Source: an uncultured Tateyamaria sp. (lineage in GTDB: Bacteria; Pseudomonadota; Alphaproteobacteria; Rhodobacterales; Rhodobacteraceae). Taken from it: a DNA stretch of 64,000 bases. Where the stretch lies: positions 186,001 to 250,000 of the forward strand of contig NZ_CANMBJ010000002.1 of NCBI RefSeq assembly GCF_947496075.1, in the 5' to 3' direction. The position numbers and the translations under genes were made by a program. This document shows, one piece after another, positions 31,965 to 41,560 of this stretch (its first letter is position 1; each line of letters starts with the position of its first letter). The notes beneath the pieces are model-generated. The model had not been told where the DNA came from and made no database searches. It saw only the letters and a program-made list of their open reading frames with translations.

Positions 31965-34163
31965 TCAGGCTGCCGCGGCTTCCTTTGGACCGAAGCGGCC
32001 ATAGAAGCTCTGGTTCTTCTCTGCCATCTCGCGCAGCAGGGCGGGGCACTTGAACCGTTCGCCATATTTGGCTTCGAGTTGGTCGCACCGTTCGGCGGCG
32101 TAGGGTGCACCGATGATGTCGAGCCAGCTGAGCGGGCCACCGGACCACGGGGCAAAGCCCCAGCCGAGGATCGCGCCCACGTCGCCTTCGCGGATGTCCA
32201 TCAGCACGCCTTCTTCCAGCGCGCGAACGGCTTCGAGGACTTGGGAGAACAGCAGGCGGTGTTGCACCTCACCCAGTTCGGGCTGCTCGTCGAGCAGCGG
32301 ATACTTGTCGTGCACGCCGCGCCAGATGCCCTGACGTTTGCCCTTCTCATCGTAGTCATAGAAGCCTGCGTTCGCCTTGCGGCCCAGGCGGCCCAGCTCT
32401 TCCAACCAGAAAATCAGGTCGTCGGAGGGGCTGTCGGGATAGTCGTCGCCCATGGCGGCCTTGGTCGCGCGGGCGATCTTGGCACCCAGATCGATGGCCG
32501 TCTCATCCGTCAATTGCAGCGGACCCAAGGGCATGCCGACCATCTTGGCGGCGTTTTCGATCAGCGCAGGCTCGACCCCTTCGGTGACCATCCGCGTCCC
32601 TTCGTTGATGTAAGGGATGATGCAGCGGTTGGCGTAGAAGAAGCGCGCGTCGTTGACCACGATGGGCGTTTTGCGGATCTGGCGCACGTAGTCGAGCGCC
32701 TTGGCCACGGCCCGGTCGCCGGTGTTGGCGCCCTTGATGATCTCGACCAACAGCATCTTTTCGACGGGCGAGAAGAAGTGGATGCCGATGAACTGGTCCT
32801 GGTTTTTGCTGGCCTTCGCCAGTTCGGAGATCGGCAGGGTCGAGGTGTTGGAGGCAAAGATGCAGTCGTCGGGGATGATCGCCTCGACCTTTTGGGTGAT
32901 CTCGGCCTTGACCTTGGGGTCTTCGAACACGGCTTCGATGATCAGGTCGCAGCCTTTGAGGGCGTCCAAGTCAGGCGTGGCGGTGATGCGGGACAGGAGC
33001 GCGTCGCCCTTTTCCTGCGTGGTCTTGCCGCGCTTGATGCCGCCTTCGACATATTTCTCGGAGTAGTTCTTGCCCCGATCCGCGCTTTCCTGATCGCGGT
33101 CGATCAGCACCACTTCCATGCCCGCCTGAGCGGAGACAAGCGCAATGCCCGCGCCCATCAGGCCCGCACCCAGCACGCCAAGTTTCTTGACCCGCTGATC
33201 TTCGATGCCTGCGGGGCGCACGGCCCCTTTTTCAAGCGCTTCCTTGTTCAAGAACAGCGATCGGATCATGGCACCCGACGAGGGGTTCAAAAGGACATTG
33301 GTGAACCAGCGCGCTTCGATCTTCAGCGCGGTATCGAATGGCACAAGCGCGCCTTCATAGACGGCACTCAGCAGCGCCTTGGCGGCGGGATAGACGCCTT
33401 GGGTCTTGCCGTTCACCATGGCGGCCGCACCAACAAAGGTCATGAAGCCCGCAGGGTGATAGGGGGCACCGCCGGGCATTTTGTAGCCCTTCTGGTCCCA
33501 GGGTTTCACAAGGTCCGCGTCAGTGGCGTTCAGCACCCATTCGCGGGCAGCGGCAACGGGATCAGCGACGACTTCATCCACCAGCTTGCCCTTGGCTTTG
33601 GCGGGCGACACCATCTTGCCTTCGAGCAGGAAGGGCGAGGCGTCCATCGCGCCCAGCTTGCGCGCCAGACGGGTCGTGCCACCCGCACCGGGGAAGATGC
33701 CGACGAGGATTTCGGGCAGGCCGACTTTGGCCTTCGGGTTGTCCGCGATGAAAGTGCGGTGCGTGGCCAGCGGCAGCTCCAGACCGATGCCAGCGGCGGT
33801 GCCGGGCAGGGCGGCGGCAATCGGCTTGCCGCCCTTGTTGGTCTTGGGATCCATGCCCGCGCGTTCGATCTTGCGCAGCAGACCGTGCATTTTCATCGTG
33901 CCTTCGAACAGGCCCTTGGCAGGGTTGTCGCCTGCCTCTTCCTTCATCTTGGCGAGCAGGTTCAGGTCCATGCCGCCGGCGAATGTGTCCTTGCCGGAGG
34001 TGATCACCACGCCCTTGACCGCGTCATCGGCGAGCACGTCGTCGATGTGGTCGTTGAGTTGCGCCAGCCCTTCGAGGGACATGACGTTCATGGTCTTGCC
34101 TTCGACATCCCATGTGATGGTGGCGATGCCGTCGGCGTCTTTGGTCAGTGTAAAGTCAGCCAT
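31965..34163 (-). CDS. fadJ: 3-hydroxyacyl-CoA dehydrogenase / enoyl-CoA hydratase
   Basis: 732 aa, the alpha subunit of the fatty-acid oxidation complex. Residues 1-190 are a crotonase domain (enoyl-CoA hydratase; VITSGKDTFAGGMDL, LPGTAAGIGLELPLATH). The NAD-binding 3-hydroxyacyl-CoA dehydrogenase domain starts near residue 330 with VLGAGLMGAGIALVSAQAG, followed by SNTSTLPISELA and GIHFFSPVEKMLLVEII (catalytic His), and a C-terminal dehydrogenase domain. GGGGAGAAG precedes the start. It follows fadA by 15 bp and the pair should be cotranscribed from the operator-bearing promoter at 35391-35485. Confidence 0.96.
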   Translation of the reverse strand: MADFTLTKDADGIATITWDVEGKTMNVMSLEGLAQLNDHIDDVLADDAVKGVVITSGKDTFAGGMDLNLLAKMKEEAGDNPAKGLFEGTMKMHGLLRKIERAGMDPKTNKGGKPIAAALPGTAAGIGLELPLATHRTFIADNPKAKVGLPEILVGIFPGAGGTTRLARKLGAMDASPFLLEGKMVSPAKAKGKLVDEVVADPVAAAREWVLNATDADLVKPWDQKGYKMPGGAPYHPAGFMTFVGAAAMVNGKTQGVYPAAKALLSAVYEGALVPFDTALKIEARWFTNVLLNPSSGAMIRSLFLNKEALEKGAVRPAGIEDQRVKKLGVLGAGLMGAGIALVSAQAGMEVVLIDRDQESADRGKNYSEKYVEGGIKRGKTTQEKGDALLSRITATPDLDALKGCDLIIEAVFEDPKVKAEITQKVEAIIPDDCIFASNTSTLPISELAKASKNQDQFIGIHFFSPVEKMLLVEIIKGANTGDRAVAKALDYVRQIRKTPIVVNDARFFYANRCIIPYINEGTRMVTEGVEPALIENAAKMVGMPLGPLQLTDETAIDLGAKIARATKAAMGDDYPDSPSDDLIFWLEELGRLGRKANAGFYDYDEKGKRQGIWRGVHDKYPLLDEQPELGEVQHRLLFSQVLEAVRALEEGVLMDIREGDVGAILGWGFAPWSGGPLSWLDIIGAPYAAERCDQLEAKYGERFKCPALLREMAEKNQSFYGRFGPKEAAAA

Positions 34164-34178: not shown

Positions 34179-35390
<1,212 letters not shown>

Positions 35391-35436: not shown

Positions 35437-35452
35437 TAGACCGGATGGTCTA
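35437..35452. promoter_or_regulatory. TAGACC-GGAT-GGTCTA dyad upstream of fadA
   Basis: Perfect 6-bp arms with a 4-bp centre, between the longer operator and fadA. It has the form of a TetR-family half-site pair; it may equally be a chance palindrome. Confidence 0.3.
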
Positions 35453-35458
35453 ATCAAG

Positions 35459-35485
35459 GGTGACGTTGCGGCGCTTTACGTAAAC
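35459..35485. promoter_or_regulatory. MerR-type operator in front of fadA-fadJ
   Basis: GGTGACGT-N11-ACGTAAAC. Seven of eight bases in each arm match GTTGACGT-N11-ACGTCAAC, the perfect repeat upstream of the merR gene (40444-40470), with identical spacing. It begins one base after the GST stop codon and lies 68 bp before fadA. Confidence 0.7.
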
Positions 35486-36118
35486 TTACGCGCGGTCGGC
35501 AGGCGAGCCGGGCATGAGGTCGTACGGGGCCTTCCAGCCGGGCGTGTTCGAGATGTTCGTCAACCAGCGGTCGATATTGGGCCAGTCGGCGCGGTCGAAC
35601 CCGAACGGTTCGGGGTAGTAGAGGTAGCCGCAGCACGACAAATCGGCATTGGTCAGGCTGTCGCCGACGATCCAATCGCGACCTTCGAGGTGGGCGTCGA
35701 GGACGTTGTAGGCGGCCTTGAGACGGCCCTGGTTGAAGGCGATGACCTCTTTGGGTTGCTTGTCTTCGGGCAAGAAGTTCATCAGGAACCGGGTGACGCC
35801 GCACATGGAGCTGAGCTTGTGGTTGTCCCAGAGGACCCAGCGCAGCACTTCGTATTTGTCGTCACCTTCACCGCCGAATTTACCGGTCTTGTCGGAGACG
35901 TATTTCTGGATGACGCCCGACTGGCTGATCTTGCGGTCCCCATCCACCAGCAAAGGCGCCTCGCCCATCGGGTTGAGGGCGCGGTATTCGTCTGTGCGCG
36001 CGGCGCCGCCGAAGAAATCAACGAAGACGGGCTCCCAATCGAGACCGGAGAGTTGCAGAGCGAGGGCTGCCTTGTAGGAGTTCCCGCTTTCGCCGAAGCA
36101 GTGCAGTTTGAGGGTCAT
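35486..36118 (-). CDS. Glutathione S-transferase family protein
   Basis: 210 aa from the ATG at 36118. N-terminal thioredoxin-like domain with the glutathione Ser in FGESGNSYKAALAL (residues 6-19) and the cis-Pro region NPMGEAPLLVDGDRKISQSG (49-68; E-S-type loop here is S-Q-S-G). C-terminal helical domain with GDSLTNADLSCCGYLYY. Nu/beta-like bacterial GST. Situated inside the fatty-acid region on the same strand as fadA, with its own start 95 bp before the operator-bearing gap; function probably in detoxification or handling of an acyl/epoxide by-product, which is inference. Confidence 0.88.
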   Translation of the reverse strand: MTLKLHCFGESGNSYKAALALQLSGLDWEPVFVDFFGGAARTDEYRALNPMGEAPLLVDGDRKISQSGVIQKYVSDKTGKFGGEGDDKYEVLRWVLWDNHKLSSMCGVTRFLMNFLPEDKQPKEVIAFNQGRLKAAYNVLDAHLEGRDWIVGDSLTNADLSCCGYLYYPEPFGFDRADWPNIDRWLTNISNTPGWKAPYDLMPGSPADRA

Positions 36119-36422
36119 TGGTGCGGGCCTTTCCGGTCTTGAGATTTGGGAGGGCAAGACCGGTGGGTTTCACACCCCCCGGACCCCCCGTGCGGTTTAT
36201 CTGGCGAAATGAAGATGATCCCGTTTACGCCACATTAAGGTTAATGCCCCGAAGATGAGAAGGTATGGCAGGCTGCGGAGCTGAGCCATGTGCGAAGTGA
36301 AACCCTGCTTTCCCGGCCTCGGTGGACGCCGCCCGCGGAAAGCAGGGTGGACCCCACCTTCATTTCGCCAGGTAAACCGCCCCCGGAGGGCCGGCTGGCG
36401 GCAAGCGCCAATGCGTTTCGCA
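36119..36422. other. Gene-free gap holding a nested repeat element
   Basis: 304 bp without a convincing gene. Short open frames (80 and 61 codons) on the minus strand follow the inverted repeats and look accidental. Most of it is the inverted-repeat element at 36192-36380. Confidence 0.7.
36192..36380. repeat. Nested inverted-repeat element (189 bp)
   Basis: Outer arms 36192-36217 and 36355-36380 are 26 bp long and complementary at 24 positions (left arm starts GCGGTTTATCTGGCGAAAT). Inside are CCCTGCTTTCC (36303-36313) and GGAAAGCAGGG (36337-36347), perfect 11-bp arms. The layout is that of a miniature inverted-repeat element or a strongly folded RNA. No flanking target duplication was found by eye. 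Confidence 0.75.
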
Positions 36423-37571
36423 TCAAAACGCCCTCGCAATCAGCTCTTTCATGATCTCATTGGTGCCACCATAGATGCGTTGTACCCGCGCGTCGGTCCA
36501 CATGCCGCCGATGTCGTAATCGTTGGTGAAACCGTAGCCGCCATGGAGTTGCAAGCACTCGTCCAGCACCCAGGCTTGGGTGTCCGTGGTCCAGTATTTG
36601 CACATGGCGGCTTTATCTACGGTCAACTCGCCGCGGATGTGTTCGGCCATGCATTCGTCAAAGAAAGACCGGCTGACCATAGTTTTGGTCTTGGCCTCGG
36701 CCAGTTTGAAGCGGGTGTTCTGGAATTGCAGGAGGTTGCCGCCGAAGGCCTCGCGTTCCTTGCAGTAGGCTAGGGTGCGCTCGACCGCGCCTTCCATGGC
36801 TCCGACAGCAGCACAGGCGATGACCATGCGTTCCTGCGGGAGTTGCTGCATCAGCTGGTAGAACCCCTGGCCTTCGCTGCCGCCAAGGATGTTTTCGGGA
36901 GCGATCTCGACGTTGTCGAAAAACAGCTCGGATGTGTCCGACGCGTGCATACCGATCTTGTCGAGGTTGCGGCCGCGCTGGAACCCTTCGGCGCCGTCGG
37001 TTTCGAGCACCACCAGCGACACGCCTTTGGAGCCTTCGGTCGGATCGGTCTTGGCCGCGACAACGATCAGGTTGGCGTGCTGACCATTAGTGATGAAGGT
37101 CTTGGAGCCGTTCAGCTTGTAGGCGTTGCCGTCTTTGATGGCGCGGGTCTTGATTGCTTGTACGTCAGAGCCGGTGGAGGGTTCGGTCATTGCCAACGCG
37201 CCGACCAACTCGCCCGTCACCAGCTTGGGCAGCCAGCGCTGTTTCTGATCCTCGGTACCGTATGCCAGAACGTAGTGCGCGACGATGCCGGAGTGAATGC
37301 CGTGGCCCCAGGCCGCCAGGTTGGCGCGGGATGCTTCGACAAGGATAGCGGCTTCGTGGCCGAAGTCGCCTCCGGCTCCACCGTATTCTTCAGGGATCGA
37401 CGGGCAGAGCAGGCCCAACTCGCCCGCTTGTGCCCAGGTTGAGCGGTCCATTTCGCCCTGCTTGCGCCAGCGTTCGAAATGGGGCGCCCACTCATTTGTG
37501 ATGAATTGCGCCGTCATGTCGGCGATCATCTGGTGTTCCTCGGTCATCCACGTAGACGGACCGGCAGCCAT
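36423..37571 (-). CDS. Acyl-CoA dehydrogenase
   Basis: 382 aa from the ATG at 37571; the frame extends upstream to 37787 but that part overlaps another gene. FAD enzyme for the first step of beta-oxidation. [17 protein letters not shown] is the FAD/substrate loop, and near the C-terminus [22 protein letters not shown] and [17 protein letters not shown] include the usual catalytic position (…GGTNEI). Short/medium or branched-chain type; closer to the long-standing FadE-like roseobacter enzymes than to glutaryl-CoA dehydrogenase. Last gene of a minus-strand string that begins with the small genes at 37.6-38.1 kb. Confidence 0.92.
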
Positions 37572-37576
37572 ATCTT

Positions 37577-37864
37577 TCACTTGTTTCCTCCCAGAAGTGA
37601 ATTGAACAAAAAAGCCACAACACACACCACAAAACTCAAAACGAACAACAGAAAGGAGAGCCCCATAAAATAACCTGAGGCAATTCCTGAGTACACGAAA
37701 CCTCCGACTTGAACTCCCAAGACTGAGCAATCGGGTTCTGCAGCTGCCGTAACTCGTCCGCATCCCGCTACTTTGCCAACAGCCCATGTTGCTCCAAAGT
37801 GGAGCAGTACCAAGGCCATCGGCACCAGCCCAAGGCCAATGATCCAGCGTGTGACGGCCTGCAT
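37577..37864 (-). CDS. Small membrane protein, two helices
   Basis: 95 aa. Helix 1 near residues 7-29 ([21 protein letters not shown]), then a loop with two Cys ([18 protein letters not shown], probably periplasmic and disulfide-linked), and helix 2 near 61-90 ([26 protein letters not shown]). The start overlaps the stop of the upstream 70-aa gene by one base (TAATG), which supports real, coupled translation. I do not recognise the family. Confidence 0.6.
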
Positions 37865-38076
37865 TATCTTTTGCGCGCCTCCAACTCGGAATTGAACAGC
37901 CGCAGGCGGGCTGTCAGGTTTTCCTCGTTCATCACGCTATCGAAATTCTCGAACAGGAACGACAGGGCCTCGCCCTCGTCCAGACCCGCTTCGGCGGCAA
38001 ACCGCTTGAGGCGGCGATACCCGTCTTCGGTCATCGCGACGGGAAAGCGGCGGGTGAGGCGAAAGCGTTTGGGCAT
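37864..38076 (-). CDS. Small ribbon-helix-helix-like protein
   Basis: 70 aa. A short basic strand ([12 protein letters not shown]) followed by two predicted helices ([30 protein letters not shown]) has the outline of a ribbon-helix-helix DNA-binding domain, though with an acidic C-terminal half. It lies right after the terminator hairpin of the DmdC-like gene and is coupled to the two-helix membrane protein. Function unknown. Confidence 0.55.
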
Positions 38077-38088
38077 AAGCGGTCCTGC

Positions 38089-38122
38089 AAAAAAAGTAAG
38101 GCGGGGGATACCCCCGCCTTAC
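38089..38122. terminator. Hairpin terminator of the DmdC-like gene
   Basis: GTAAGGCGGGGG-ATA-CCCCCGCCTTAC (38096-38122), a perfect 12-bp stem. Read on the minus strand it follows the dehydrogenase stop and runs into seven T's (38089-38095). It belongs to the GTAAGGCGG palindrome family of this window. Confidence 0.85.
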
Positions 38123-38127
38123 CAACT

Positions 38128-39909
38128 TTAGAAGTTTGCCGCTTCCAGCGCCATCACAGTGTCGGCACCGGTCTGGATGCGTGTCAGGTGCAACGCTGTG
38201 GCGGGCAGTTGGCGTGCCATGTAGTAGCGGCCCGTTGCCAGCTTGGTCTCAAAGAATTCCGGGTCGGACGTTCCACCCGCCAGTGCCTCACGCGACGCCT
38301 TGCCCATCTTGGCCCACATCAGGCCTAGGCAGACATGGCCGAACATATGCATGAAGTCGTAGGACCCGGACAGCGCGTTATTCGGGTTCGTCATGCCGTT
38401 CTGCATGAAGTACATGCCCGCGGCCTGCAGGTCCTTGGAGGCTGCTTTCAGCGGTTCCAGGAACTCGTTGTCGTAGGCCTCGTCCTGACCGGAGTTGTCC
38501 TTGATAAAGCCTTTGACCAGATCAAAGAACGCCATCACATGCTTGCCACCGTCTTGCGCCAGCTTGCGGCCCACGAGGTCCAGCGCCTGCACGCCGTTGG
38601 CCCCTTCGTAGATCATCGCGATGCGGGCGTCGCGGGTGTATTGCGACATGCCCCATTCCTCGATGTAGCCATGACCGCCATAAACCTGCTGGGCCTTGAT
38701 GGTGTTGTCGTAGCCAACATCCGTCAGGAAACCCTTGATGATCGGGGTCAGCAGCGACACGAGGCCGTCGGCGTCCTTGTCACCAGCCCGGTGGGCGGCG
38801 TCGATCATTGTCGCGCCCCACAGGATGAACGCGCGTGCGCCTTCGGCAAAGGACTTCTGGTCCATCAGCGAGCGGCGGATGTCGGGGTGCACGATCAGCG
38901 GGTCGGCGGGCTTTTCAGGGGCCTTGGCACCTGTCACGTCGCGCCCCTGCAGACGGTCGTTGGCGTACTCAACGGCGTTCTGATAGGCGACCTCGGCCTG
39001 GGACAGGCCTTGCATGCCCACACCCAGACGCGCTTCGTTCATCATGGTGAACATGGCGCGCATCCCCTTGTGCTCTTCGCCAATCAGGTAGCCCACGGCC
39101 CCGTCATAGTTCATCACGCAGGTGGAGTTGCCGTGAATGCCCATCTTCTCTTCGATGTTGCCAACAGCGACACCGTTGCGGGCACCCAGCGAGCCGTCTT
39201 CGTTCACGAGGAACTTGGGCACGATGAAGAGCGACACGCCTTTGATCCCCTCGGGGCCGCCAACGATTTTCGCCAGCACCAGGTGGATGATGTTGTCGGC
39301 CATGTCGTGCTCACCGGCAGAGATAAAGATCTTCTGGCCGGAGATTTTGTAGCTGCCGTCGTCTTGCGGTTCGGCCTTGGTGCGCATCAGGCCCAGGTCC
39401 GTGCCGCAATGCGGCTCGGTCAGGTTCATGGTGCCGGTCCATTCGCAGGACACCATCTTGGGCAGATAGGTTTCCTTCTGGGCTTGGCTGCCGTGCGCCA
39501 GAATGGCCGAGGCCGCACCATGGGTCAGGCCCTGGTACATAGTGAAGGCCATGTTGGCGGACGAGAACATCTCGCCCACGGCAGTGCCGATGACGTAAGG
39601 CATGTTCTGGCCGCCGAACTCTTCGGGCATGTCCAGACCGGGCCAGCCGCCCTCTTTCACCTGCTCGAACGCATCCTTGAACCCGGTGGGGGTGTAGACA
39701 ACGCCGTTTTCCAACCGGCAGCCTTCCTTGTCACCGACGACGTTCAGGGGCGCCAGCACTTCGGAGGTCAGCTTGCCTGCTTCGTCGAGGATCGCGGAGG
39801 TAAAGTCGGCCTCCAGCTCATCGTAGCCCGGGATGTCGGAGCCTGTGACGTTCAGAACGTCGTGCAGGATGAATTGCATGTCTTTGGTGGGGGGCGTGTA
39901 GCTTGGCAT
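38128..39909 (-). CDS. Acyl-CoA dehydrogenase, DmdC-like long form
   Basis: 593 aa, longer than classical acyl-CoA dehydrogenases because of an extra C-terminal domain, as in DmdC and related roseobacter enzymes. The N-terminus [18 protein letters not shown] is characteristic of this group. Motifs: [40 protein letters not shown], and [23 protein letters not shown] for FAD binding and catalysis. It could oxidise 3-methylmercaptopropionyl-CoA or, more generally, medium/long acyl-CoA. It follows the merR gene by 27 bp, so it is probably part of the MerR-controlled operon. Confidence 0.9.
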
Positions 39910-39936
39910 AAGTCTCTCTCCCTAGTGCGGCGGCGC

Positions 39937-40338
39937 TTATTCAGCGGCCTTCTTCGTGGTATTCATCGAGGCGATCATCTTTTCGCCCCACTTCAACTGG
40001 TTCCGAAGGTCATCGATGGCTTCGGTCAATTCAGCGCGTTGGTGCTCCATGTCGGCCAGGCGGTCACGGGCGATGTCATAGGTGCGCGCCAGTTGCGTCT
40101 GTTGCTGGTCACCCATGTCGTAGAGGTCCAGAAGCTGGCGGATTTCTTCGAGGCTGAAGCCAAAGCGCTTGCCGCGCAGGATCAGCTTCAGGCGGGCCCG
40201 GTCGCGTTTTGTGAACAGGCGCTTTTGGCCTTCGCGGATCGGGAACAGCAATTCCTTGGCTTCGTAGAAGCGCAGGGTCCGCGGCGTGACCTCGAAGGCG
40301 TCACACATTTCGCGGATGGTCATGGTTTTATCACTCAT
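39937..40338 (-). CDS. MerR family regulator of fatty-acid degradation
   Basis: 133 aa from the ATG at 40338. N-terminal winged helix-turn-helix (TIREMCDAFEVTPRTLRFYEAKELL, written here in two parts: residues 7-18 and 19-31) followed by a long coiled coil (about 75-120) and no metal-binding Cys, so it senses something other than metal, most likely an acyl-CoA. Immediately upstream of the DmdC-like gene and downstream of two copies of a 27-bp inverted repeat also found before fadA, so it is the best candidate for the protein that binds that site. Similar MerR proteins (LiuR-like) control acyl-CoA breakdown in other proteobacteria. Confidence 0.85.
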   Translation of the reverse strand: MSDKTMTIREMCDAFEVTPRTLRFYEAKELLFPIREGQKRLFTKRDRARLKLILRGKRFGFSLEEIRQLLDLYDMGDQQQTQLARTYDIARDRLADMEHQRAELTEAIDDLRNQLKWGEKMIASMNTTKKAAE

Positions 40339-40409
40339 CGGATCACTCGCATATCCTGTTGCGGTCATCACATGGTGGAGACGCGGATTCGATGCAACCG
40401 GCAGATGAC

Positions 40410-40470
40410 GTTGACGTAAACTGTACGTTGCGTCACGAAGGAAGTTGACGTGATTTTTTGCAACGTCAAC
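40410..40470. promoter_or_regulatory. Two MerR-type operators between merR and usp
   Basis: Site 1: GTTGACGT-N11-ACGTCAAC (40444-40470), perfect 8-bp arms. Site 2: GTTGACGT-N12-GCGTCACG (40410-40437), a weaker copy with one extra base in the spacer. Site 2 starts 71 bp before the merR start, nearly the same distance as the fadA operator to its gene. Auto-regulation of merR and its dehydrogenase is likely. Confidence 0.7.
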
Positions 40471-40568
40471 CGCCGACGCGCCGGGTTTTTGCACCTTGAT
40501 GCATATCAAGGTGGCGCGTTCATCGCCTCGCTACGCTGCGTATGCAGTCAAAGAAGGGAGTGCATGAT

Positions 40569-41063: not shown

Positions 41064-41435
41064 TTAACCCTTGAGTTCCCCGGCAACGCTGTCGCGCAGG
41101 CCCTGTAATTCGTCCCGCGCTTCGTCCAGTTGTTTACGCTGCTCGTCCAGTTCTTTGAGCTGCCCGTCGGCAAGTTCGATCCAGGCACGCATTTGGGCCT
41201 CGGTGCCTTCGTGTTCGTAGATGAGTAGCCACTGCCGAATGTCTTCCAGTTGGAAGCCAAACTTGCGTCCGCGCAGGATTAGTTTCATGCGCGCGCTTTC
41301 CCGGGGGCCGTAAAAGCGCGATCTGCCTTCGCGGTCCGGTTGCAGCAATTCGATGTATTCGTAGTAGCGCAGCGTGCGCGGCGTCACATCAAATTCCGCG
41401 CACATCTCTTTAAAGCTCAAGCGGTCGTCTGCCAT
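41064..41435 (-). CDS. MerR family regulator (second)
   Basis: 123 aa from the ATG at 41435, with AAGGAAG just before it; an ATG six codons upstream (41453) is possible. Winged helix-turn-helix with SFKEMCAEFDVTPRTLRYYE and then LQPDREGRSRFYGPRESAR, a coiled coil near residues 80-118, no Cys. It is closely related to the regulator at 39937 (same TPRTLR-YYE/FYE pattern and RMKLILRGRKFGF versus RLKLILRGKRFGF), so the two are paralogues. It is divergent from the thioesterase pair, which it may control. Confidence 0.85.
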   Translation of the reverse strand: MADDRLSFKEMCAEFDVTPRTLRYYEYIELLQPDREGRSRFYGPRESARMKLILRGRKFGFQLEDIRQWLLIYEHEGTEAQMRAWIELADGQLKELDEQRKQLDEARDELQGLRDSVAGELKG

Positions 41436-41560
41436 GACTTCCTTTGTCTCCATCCCTGGACTTCAAGCCTAAGGCGCGTGCGCGCGGCACGCAACAGGTG
41501 CCTTGCCCAATCTGCGCGCAAGACCCATAACTTGCATCCACGACCGTGTGACGAGGCCAT

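Follow-up and report, generated by a model that had tools for sequence, protein, structure and literature searches.

Which regulator controls the genes for fatty-acid oxidation in a Roseobacter-group bacterium, and which protein reads the inverted repeat that two of their promoters share? These questions are raised by a 64,000-nucleotide stretch of DNA from an uncultured Tateyamaria sp., which we refer to as the window (the whole stretch, with positions counted from its first letter). One of the two promoters precedes merR1, which encodes a MerR-type regulator and is followed by an acyl-CoA dehydrogenase gene, and the other precedes fadA-fadJ. In the initial annotation, it was proposed that a single regulator controls both operons and itself through a common operator. 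Using a comparative genomics approach, we found this interpretation to be partly supported: the claim of a shared operator stands for this genus, and MerR1 appears to be the best candidate for its binder. Taken as a joint reading, it is likely that MerR1 would act as a LiuR-like, ligand-releasable repressor of its own beta-oxidation operon and, in this genus, of a separate fadA-fadJ promoter. The sites and the gene on which the argument turns are as follows:

40444..40470, no strand: wide operator A in the merR1 promoter, GTTGACGT-N11-ACGTCAAC, exact; full letters GTTGACGTGATTTTTTGCAACGTCAAC
35459..35485, minus-strand reading GTTTACGT-N11-ACGTCACC (forward GGTGACGT-N11-ACGTAAAC): wide operator of the fadA promoter; letters GGTGACGTTGCGGCGCTTTACGTAAAC
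40410..40436, minus-strand reading GTGACGC-N12-ACGTCAAC: second wide site, B-C1; letters GTTGACGTAAACTGTACGTTGCGTCAC
39937..40338, minus strand: merR1, 133 aa, a LiuR-like MerR regulator according to PF13411 and PF09278, the tree and the neighbours of its homologues
40392..40420, minus strand: candidate merR1 promoter predicted from the sequence, TTTACG (40415-40420), 17 bp, TTGCAT (40392-40397)

The wide operator of merR1 and fadA

The coordinates and letters that had been reported for the three wide sites were exact, and the arms of operator A and of the fadA site do agree at 14 of 16 positions with the same N11 spacer; the distance to the start codon, given as about 70 bp, is 68 bp for fadA and 71 bp for the site at 40410. 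In the 4.94-Mb genome, the core TTGACGT-N11-ACGTCAA was found without a mismatch at one place. Within the window, TTKACGY-N11-RCGTMAA, in which TTKACGY is the proposed half-site of MerR1, had six matches at up to two mismatches against a shuffle mean of 1.58, a number that was reached in 1 of 100 shuffles. At up to two mismatches to the core, where the fadA site falls, the genome contained 38 places compared with 20 for the reversed pattern, which was the control for the motif scans. Because of this background, the fadA match is not convincing in a single genome, and a single-genome scan was rejected as proof; the match is safe because it is conserved in the relatives. In the genus set of 20 genomes, merR1 and fadA were both present in 19 at the thresholds used, and the pattern GTTKACST-N11-ACGTMAMC was found before fadA in all 19, with 16 of 16 letters in ten genomes and 15 in nine. 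Exact matches to the wide site in the 20 genomes numbered 15, of which ten were located before fadA and five before merR1, with none elsewhere. At one mismatch, the same scan gave 110 strand hits against 50 for the control, with many other places among them. One of these, C2:665700, has similar letters in four other genomes of the genus and was taken as coding because the letters recur. The exact wide site is also present in the genome G031. The 3.1-Mb genus genome G019 had neither merR1 nor fadA at these thresholds.

Conservation of the fadA promoter across the genus reached 0.92 and 0.96 in the two arms compared with 0.65-0.66 in the flanks. The locus L076, whose MerR1 is 80% identical to that of the window (87-96% for genus members) and which is thus presumably outside the genus, shares all 16 arm letters with the window, and 4 of its 11 spacer letters are different.

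For the merR1 promoter, a broader comparison was made using the best 80 of 562 confirmed MerR1 orthologs together with the window (n=81; some contigs end early), while the counts of gene presence refer to the 80 fetched loci, the window excluded. The closest named locus among these best 80 belongs to an uncultured Tateyamaria sp., with a MerR1 that is 95% identical. The right arm of operator A was found in 64 of the 81 loci at a fixed distance of -15/-16 from element B. In these 64 promoters, the left arm TTKACGY matched at 6-7 of its 7 letters in 37 cases when the spacer was 11, and in 0 or 1 at each of the remaining spacers between 4 and 21; the mean left-arm score was 5.20 of 7 at spacer 11 vs. 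1.47-2.80 at spacers 4-10 and 12-21. In the aligned merR1 promoters of the genus, operator A scored 13-14 of 14 in 16 of 18 with a drifting spacer; L116 was dropped from this alignment because the anchor pattern failed, even though its sequence shows operator A. The preference for spacer 11 in the relatives and the conservation in the genus in spite of a drifting spacer therefore show that operator A is real. The N11 pattern with up to one mismatch had 54 matches in the 81 loci, 42 of them before merR1 and three before fadA (the window, L003 and L076).

The genes that lie behind merR1 are the following:

38128..39909, minus strand: acad593, acyl-CoA dehydrogenase with a PF12806 C-terminal domain, directly downstream of merR1; in 80 of 80 loci
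36423..37571, minus strand: acad382, acyl-CoA dehydrogenase; behind merR1 in 42 of 80 loci
35486..36118, minus strand: gst, glutathione S-transferase family protein; in 78 of 80 loci
34179..35390, minus strand: fadA, acetyl-CoA C-acyltransferase (NF006090, 680.5 bits, cut-off 514)
31965..34163, minus strand: fadJ/fadB-like, alpha subunit of the fatty-acid oxidation complex (top model NF008363 at 516 bits, under the cut-off of 869)

The acyl-CoA dehydrogenase gene that merR1 precedes, as annotated, is acad593, and fadA and fadJ were found in 77 of the 80 loci. The order in the relatives is mate-thio2-thio1 <> merR2 ... merR1-acad593-(acad382)-gst-fadA-fadJ. A Roseobacter-type merR1 locus with this gene order and 83% identity was also found in L016, a record titled Nocardioides marinus, the title or assembly of which is probably wrong. 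In the window, the fadA wide site starts directly after the stop codon of gst. The gap between gst and fadA is 14-33 bp in 62 of the 78 loci with both genes, in which fadA-fadJ is therefore probably transcribed onward from the merR1 operon, and 65-915 bp in the other 16, three of which have the N11 site. The separate fadA promoter is hence a local trait, seen in the genus and few others, and this narrows the initial proposal of one regulator for both operons and itself. In the gst-fadA gap of L025 (Ruegeria marina), there is a related, degenerate fadA promoter (ACGTTACTCTTGAT) with no full wide site, which hints that a separate promoter existed before the genus arose.

The LiuR kinship of MerR1 and its narrow box

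MerR1 has the winged helix-turn-helix of the MerR family (PF13411, 58.6 bits, cut-off 21.6; PF09278, 65.9 bits, cut-off 25.4). The statement that it lacks metal-binding cysteines was confirmed: there is one cysteine, at residue 12, and no C-terminal cysteine pair, and all of the metal-sensor models scored far under their cut-offs for this protein. In a tree of 68 rows and 133 columns, the bootstrap of which had not settled, MerR1 and its paralogue MerR2 formed one family-specific group (100/99). The tree separated the lineage of MerR1 from the three other MerR proteins found in the genome with 94/97, a value just under the star limit and obtained with long branches; it placed MerR1 in one lineage with the MerR proteins that head liu operons, within which the order is mostly open. 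MerR1 is 44-46% identical over 98-111 residues (41-46% in the phylum survey) to the MerR proteins of L208-L211, which are outside the class and in which the MerR gene stands ahead of an acyl-CoA dehydrogenase gene and then of long frames with the look of a liu operon. In L210, these were annotated by families as a carboxyl transferase, an enoyl-CoA hydratase, a methylcrotonyl-CoA carboxylase alpha subunit (PF21139) and an HMG-CoA lyase. Excerpts of three papers describe LiuR as a repressor of the MerR family that acts on the use of branched-chain amino acids (PMC3223726, PMC8871633, PMC5343134), and according to an excerpt of another, a Rhodospirillum rubrum LiuR candidate that is preceded by an ILV box goes up on butyrate (PMC7238569).

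The survey of the phylum covered 200 genomes (E <= 1e-18), 53 of which had a match to MerR1, and the promoters of 29 of these 53 loci were read, i.e., the best-scoring ones apart from the window's own, 22 outside the family and seven inside. An ortholog of acad593 (56-65% identity) was found behind the MerR1 homologue in 14 of the 22 loci outside the family. Neighbour genes were compared in ten homologue regions of about 10 kb. In the same class, L212 and L215, which represent two other alphaproteobacterial families, had merR1-acad593-acad382-fadA-fadJ complete; of the other three, one had acad593 and acad382, one had acad593 only and L216 had another acyl-CoA dehydrogenase gene. In L217, from outside the class, the acyl-CoA dehydrogenase gene was on the opposite strand.

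The kinship extends to a box that is narrower than the wide operators:

40405..40420, no strand: narrow 16-bp LiuR-like box (C16), TTKACGT-NN-ACGTMAA, with one mismatch in the window

As in LiuR systems, this palindromic box lies upstream of the regulator gene itself. With up to one mismatch, it had 46 matches in the 81 loci, all of which were upstream of merR1, while the reversed control had none. In the form TTKACGTNNACGTMAA and with 13 or 14 of the 14 letters matching, it was present upstream of 23 of the 29 homologues across the phylum, 18 of them outside the family, and four heads of liu-type clusters are among the homologues that have it; the identity of the 16-bp box with the LiuR box would follow from these liu-type homologues. 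In the window, the loose setting of three mismatches gave seven matches vs. 3.60 expected, and seven were reached in 6 of 100 shuffles. A box upstream of liu or ivd genes, which is also typical of LiuR, was not found in the own genome at up to one mismatch (weaker boxes were not searched); the places besides merR1 were C1:301553, C1:596096 and C2:1078942, and these were rejected as operators because all three lie inside mechanically called reading frames.

The site at 40410, which had been regarded as a weaker copy of operator A, proved instead to be the best conserved block of the merR1 promoter in the 81 loci (40410-40436), and it contains most of the 16-bp box of the family. The template TGACGYNRCGT-N5-TTACGTNAAC was matched with all 19 letters in 68 of the 81 loci, with 18 in eight and with fewer in five. 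Elements B and C1, 12 bp apart, were intact in 73 of 79 promoters, and in 13 promoters with both intact, the inner ACGT of the narrow box was lost and the wide pair was kept. Among the seven family members that were sampled, six scored 18-19 of 19 for the N12 template, compared with 15 or less in the 22 loci outside the family, where the narrow N2 box was the sole clear form. An N11 score of at least 12 of 14 was reached in three of the seven loci inside the family vs. one of the 22 outside, the latter overlapping its narrow box. The wide N11/N12 spacing in Rhodobacteraceae is an unusual feature. MerR1 belongs to the known LiuR-like regulators, from which it differs in its predicted targets and in the unusual spacing of its predicted operator. 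Instead of being part of a wide pair, element B may form a weaker box of its own, with a spacer of 1 bp. The half-sites of the wide and narrow forms are identical, and the distance between the ACGT centres is 6 bp in the narrow and 15-16 bp in the wide form, a step of 9-10 bp or about one helical turn. It is possible, though less likely than not, that the operator of a Rhodobacteraceae LiuR-like regulator shifted from narrow N2 to wide N11/N12 once a duplication had provided MerR1 and MerR2 with an operator each, and that its half-sites stayed on almost the same face of the helix.

MerR2, usp and a second palindrome at fadA

Four further features of the window bear on the control of these promoters:

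41064..41453, minus strand: merR2, a paralogue that is 46% identical to merR1; in 79 of 80 loci
41491..41506, no strand: candidate MerR2 operator, GCAA-N8-TTGC, in the divergent intergenic region of merR2 and the thioesterase genes
40496..40509, no strand: FNR-type box before usp, TTGATGCATATCAA, perfect, exact match in the window
35437..35452, no strand: second palindrome, a candidate TetR operator, TAGACC-N4-GGTCTA, perfect: TAGACCGGATGGTCTA

The merR2 intergenic regions contained GCAA-N9-TTGC in 47 of 80 loci and the N8 form in nine (56 distinct), with shuffle means of 0.1-0.2. This motif was found upstream of merR1 in none of the 81 loci, and the ACGT wide pair was found in none of the 80 merR2 promoters. 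These mutually exclusive motifs favour the view that the ACGT sites are read by MerR1 and led us to disfavour MerR2 as the binder of the wide site. The usp promoter, which had been said to share the region, does not do so in general: usp was found in 1 of the 80 fetched loci and has a box of its own, TTGATGCATATCAA, which we take to be of the FNR type. Shared control of usp as a general feature was therefore rejected (the other genomes of the genus were not searched for usp).

The second palindrome, which was missed in the initial annotation, is located between the fadA wide site and the fadA start codon. TRGACC-N4-GGTCYA was kept at fadA in all 19 genus genomes; its variable outer pair was complementary in 14 (A..T in 12, G..C in two) and non-complementary in five (A..C in four, G..T in one). 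Exact matches in the genome were found at five places, compared with two for the control: at fadA, at C2:330719 and C11:28144, which were set aside because they lie inside mechanically called reading frames, and at two places in tandem on contig C4, between an alpha/beta-hydrolase-like gene (named by eye) and a TetR gene (C4:164505). The TetR protein carries an LmrA/YxaF-like domain (PF21993, 46.2 bits, cut-off 27) and is the only one over this cut-off in the genome, the second hit, C4:182361, scoring 24.8 bits. This relative of the LmrA/YxaF (QdoR) repressors has the tandem palindromes at its own promoter, and the same palindrome stands at fadA; it is the natural candidate for a predicted second input to fadA. 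The palindrome presumably resembles the LmrA/YxaF box. An excerpt of PMC8481877 shows no sequence of that box.

Predicted control and its alternatives

The MerR1 operon would comprise merR1, acad593 and probably acad382 and gst. The usual operator of the family would be the narrow 16-bp box with two half-sites (N2); in Rhodobacteraceae, wide inverted pairs (N11 at 40444 and 35459, N12 at 40410) would have been added to it and would in part have taken its place. Once bound, MerR1 is predicted to occupy the -35 region of merR1 and to hold expression of the acyl-CoA dehydrogenase, thiolase and hydratase genes low until its ligand releases it; given the pathway, this ligand is likely to be the CoA-thioester of a fatty or branched acid. 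A TetR-type repressor that acts at 35437-35452 probably controls the fadA promoter as well. Repression by MerR1 is most likely because arm C1 overlaps the candidate -35 of merR1 (40415-40420); a TTGTAA/TTGCAT-like hexamer is conserved in the merR1 promoters at about the distance of the candidate -10. It is improbable that MerR1 is a classical MerR activator on a promoter with an over-long -35/-10 spacing across the operator. Such an arrangement would fit the fadA promoter, in which TTTACG and TTGATT are 21 bp apart and flank the operator, whereas the best -35/-10 pair of merR1 is spaced by 17 bp and overlaps the operator, and LiuR is reported as a repressor in excerpts of PMC3223726 and PMC8871633. 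The probabilities that we attach to this reading and to its rivals overlap and do not sum to one.

Several observations weigh against control of both promoters by MerR1. Its binding to the wide and narrow sites is a prediction, and the wide-site pattern used across the genus was composed after both sites were known. The right arm of operator A was absent in 17 of the 81 loci, and operator A was missing from two of the 18 aligned genus promoters. The remaining N11 matches in the 81 loci included seven inside fadA (one exact), one inside fadJ and one elsewhere, and the reversed control gave two. In other genomes, exact TTACGTNAACGTMAA was found at 11 loci; tblastn with the window proteins showed parts of the merR1 cluster at six of them and not at the other five. 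The narrow box with up to one mismatch occurred at four places in the genome vs. two for the control, i.e., near background. The spacer of the fadA site, at 0.87, is nearly as conserved as its arms, and what is conserved at fadA is hence a block of the promoter, not just the two arms. MerR operators typically have a smaller spacing than the 15-16 bp between the ACGT centres of the wide pair, and because this distance is also larger than in the family box (6 bp), one MerR dimer may not span the wide site.

The spacing, unlike that of the family box, also speaks for another regulator (MerR2, a mixed MerR1-MerR2 form or an unrelated protein, e.g., of the LysR type) at the wide palindrome, with MerR1 only at the narrow box. 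The wide pairs do occur in a family where MerR2 is also present, and the inner T-N11-A of the wide site fits the T-N11-A rule of LysR regulators. This explanation seems rather unlikely to us in view of the identical half-sites of the two forms, the confinement of exact wide sites in the genus to two promoters of the merR1 cluster and the different motif of the merR2 promoter. That the fadA site is no operator at all, being a chance likeness within a conserved promoter that is controlled by the TetR site only, is highly improbable: the near-background count at two mismatches in one genome and the lack of such a site at up to one mismatch before fadA in 75 of 78 loci would agree with it, but 15-16 of the 16 pattern letters are kept in all 19 genus genomes, and L076 keeps its arms while its spacer has changed.

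Control by MerR1, as we propose it, resembles the LiuR regulon in the identity of MerR1 to the liu-cluster proteins, the 16-bp box upstream of the regulator gene and the acyl-CoA dehydrogenase gene behind the leader gene. It differs in its predicted targets, which are straight-chain beta-oxidation genes, in the wide N11/N12 operators, in the MerR2 paralogue and in the restriction of the narrow box at up to one mismatch in the own genome to merR1 and the three in-frame places. Fatty-acid degradation is also the target pathway of PsrA, FadR and FadP according to an excerpt of PMC5343134; PsrA and FadP belong to the TetR and FadR to the GntR family, whereas MerR1 is of the MerR family. A keyword-level literature search found no MerR-type regulator of fatty-acid degradation or fad genes in the Roseobacter group or Rhodobacteraceae. 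The fadA promoter would be a case of a separate promoter that carries the operator of the neighbouring operon together with a second, TetR-type input. If the reading is true, the operator illustrates how the spacing of half-sites can change while the half-site stays constant, and a shift of this kind would imply a new MerR binding mode, either a stretched dimer or two cooperating dimers. It would also mean that straight-chain beta-oxidation is governed, in at least several families of Alphaproteobacteria, by a LiuR-like switch of the kind known from branched-chain amino acids.

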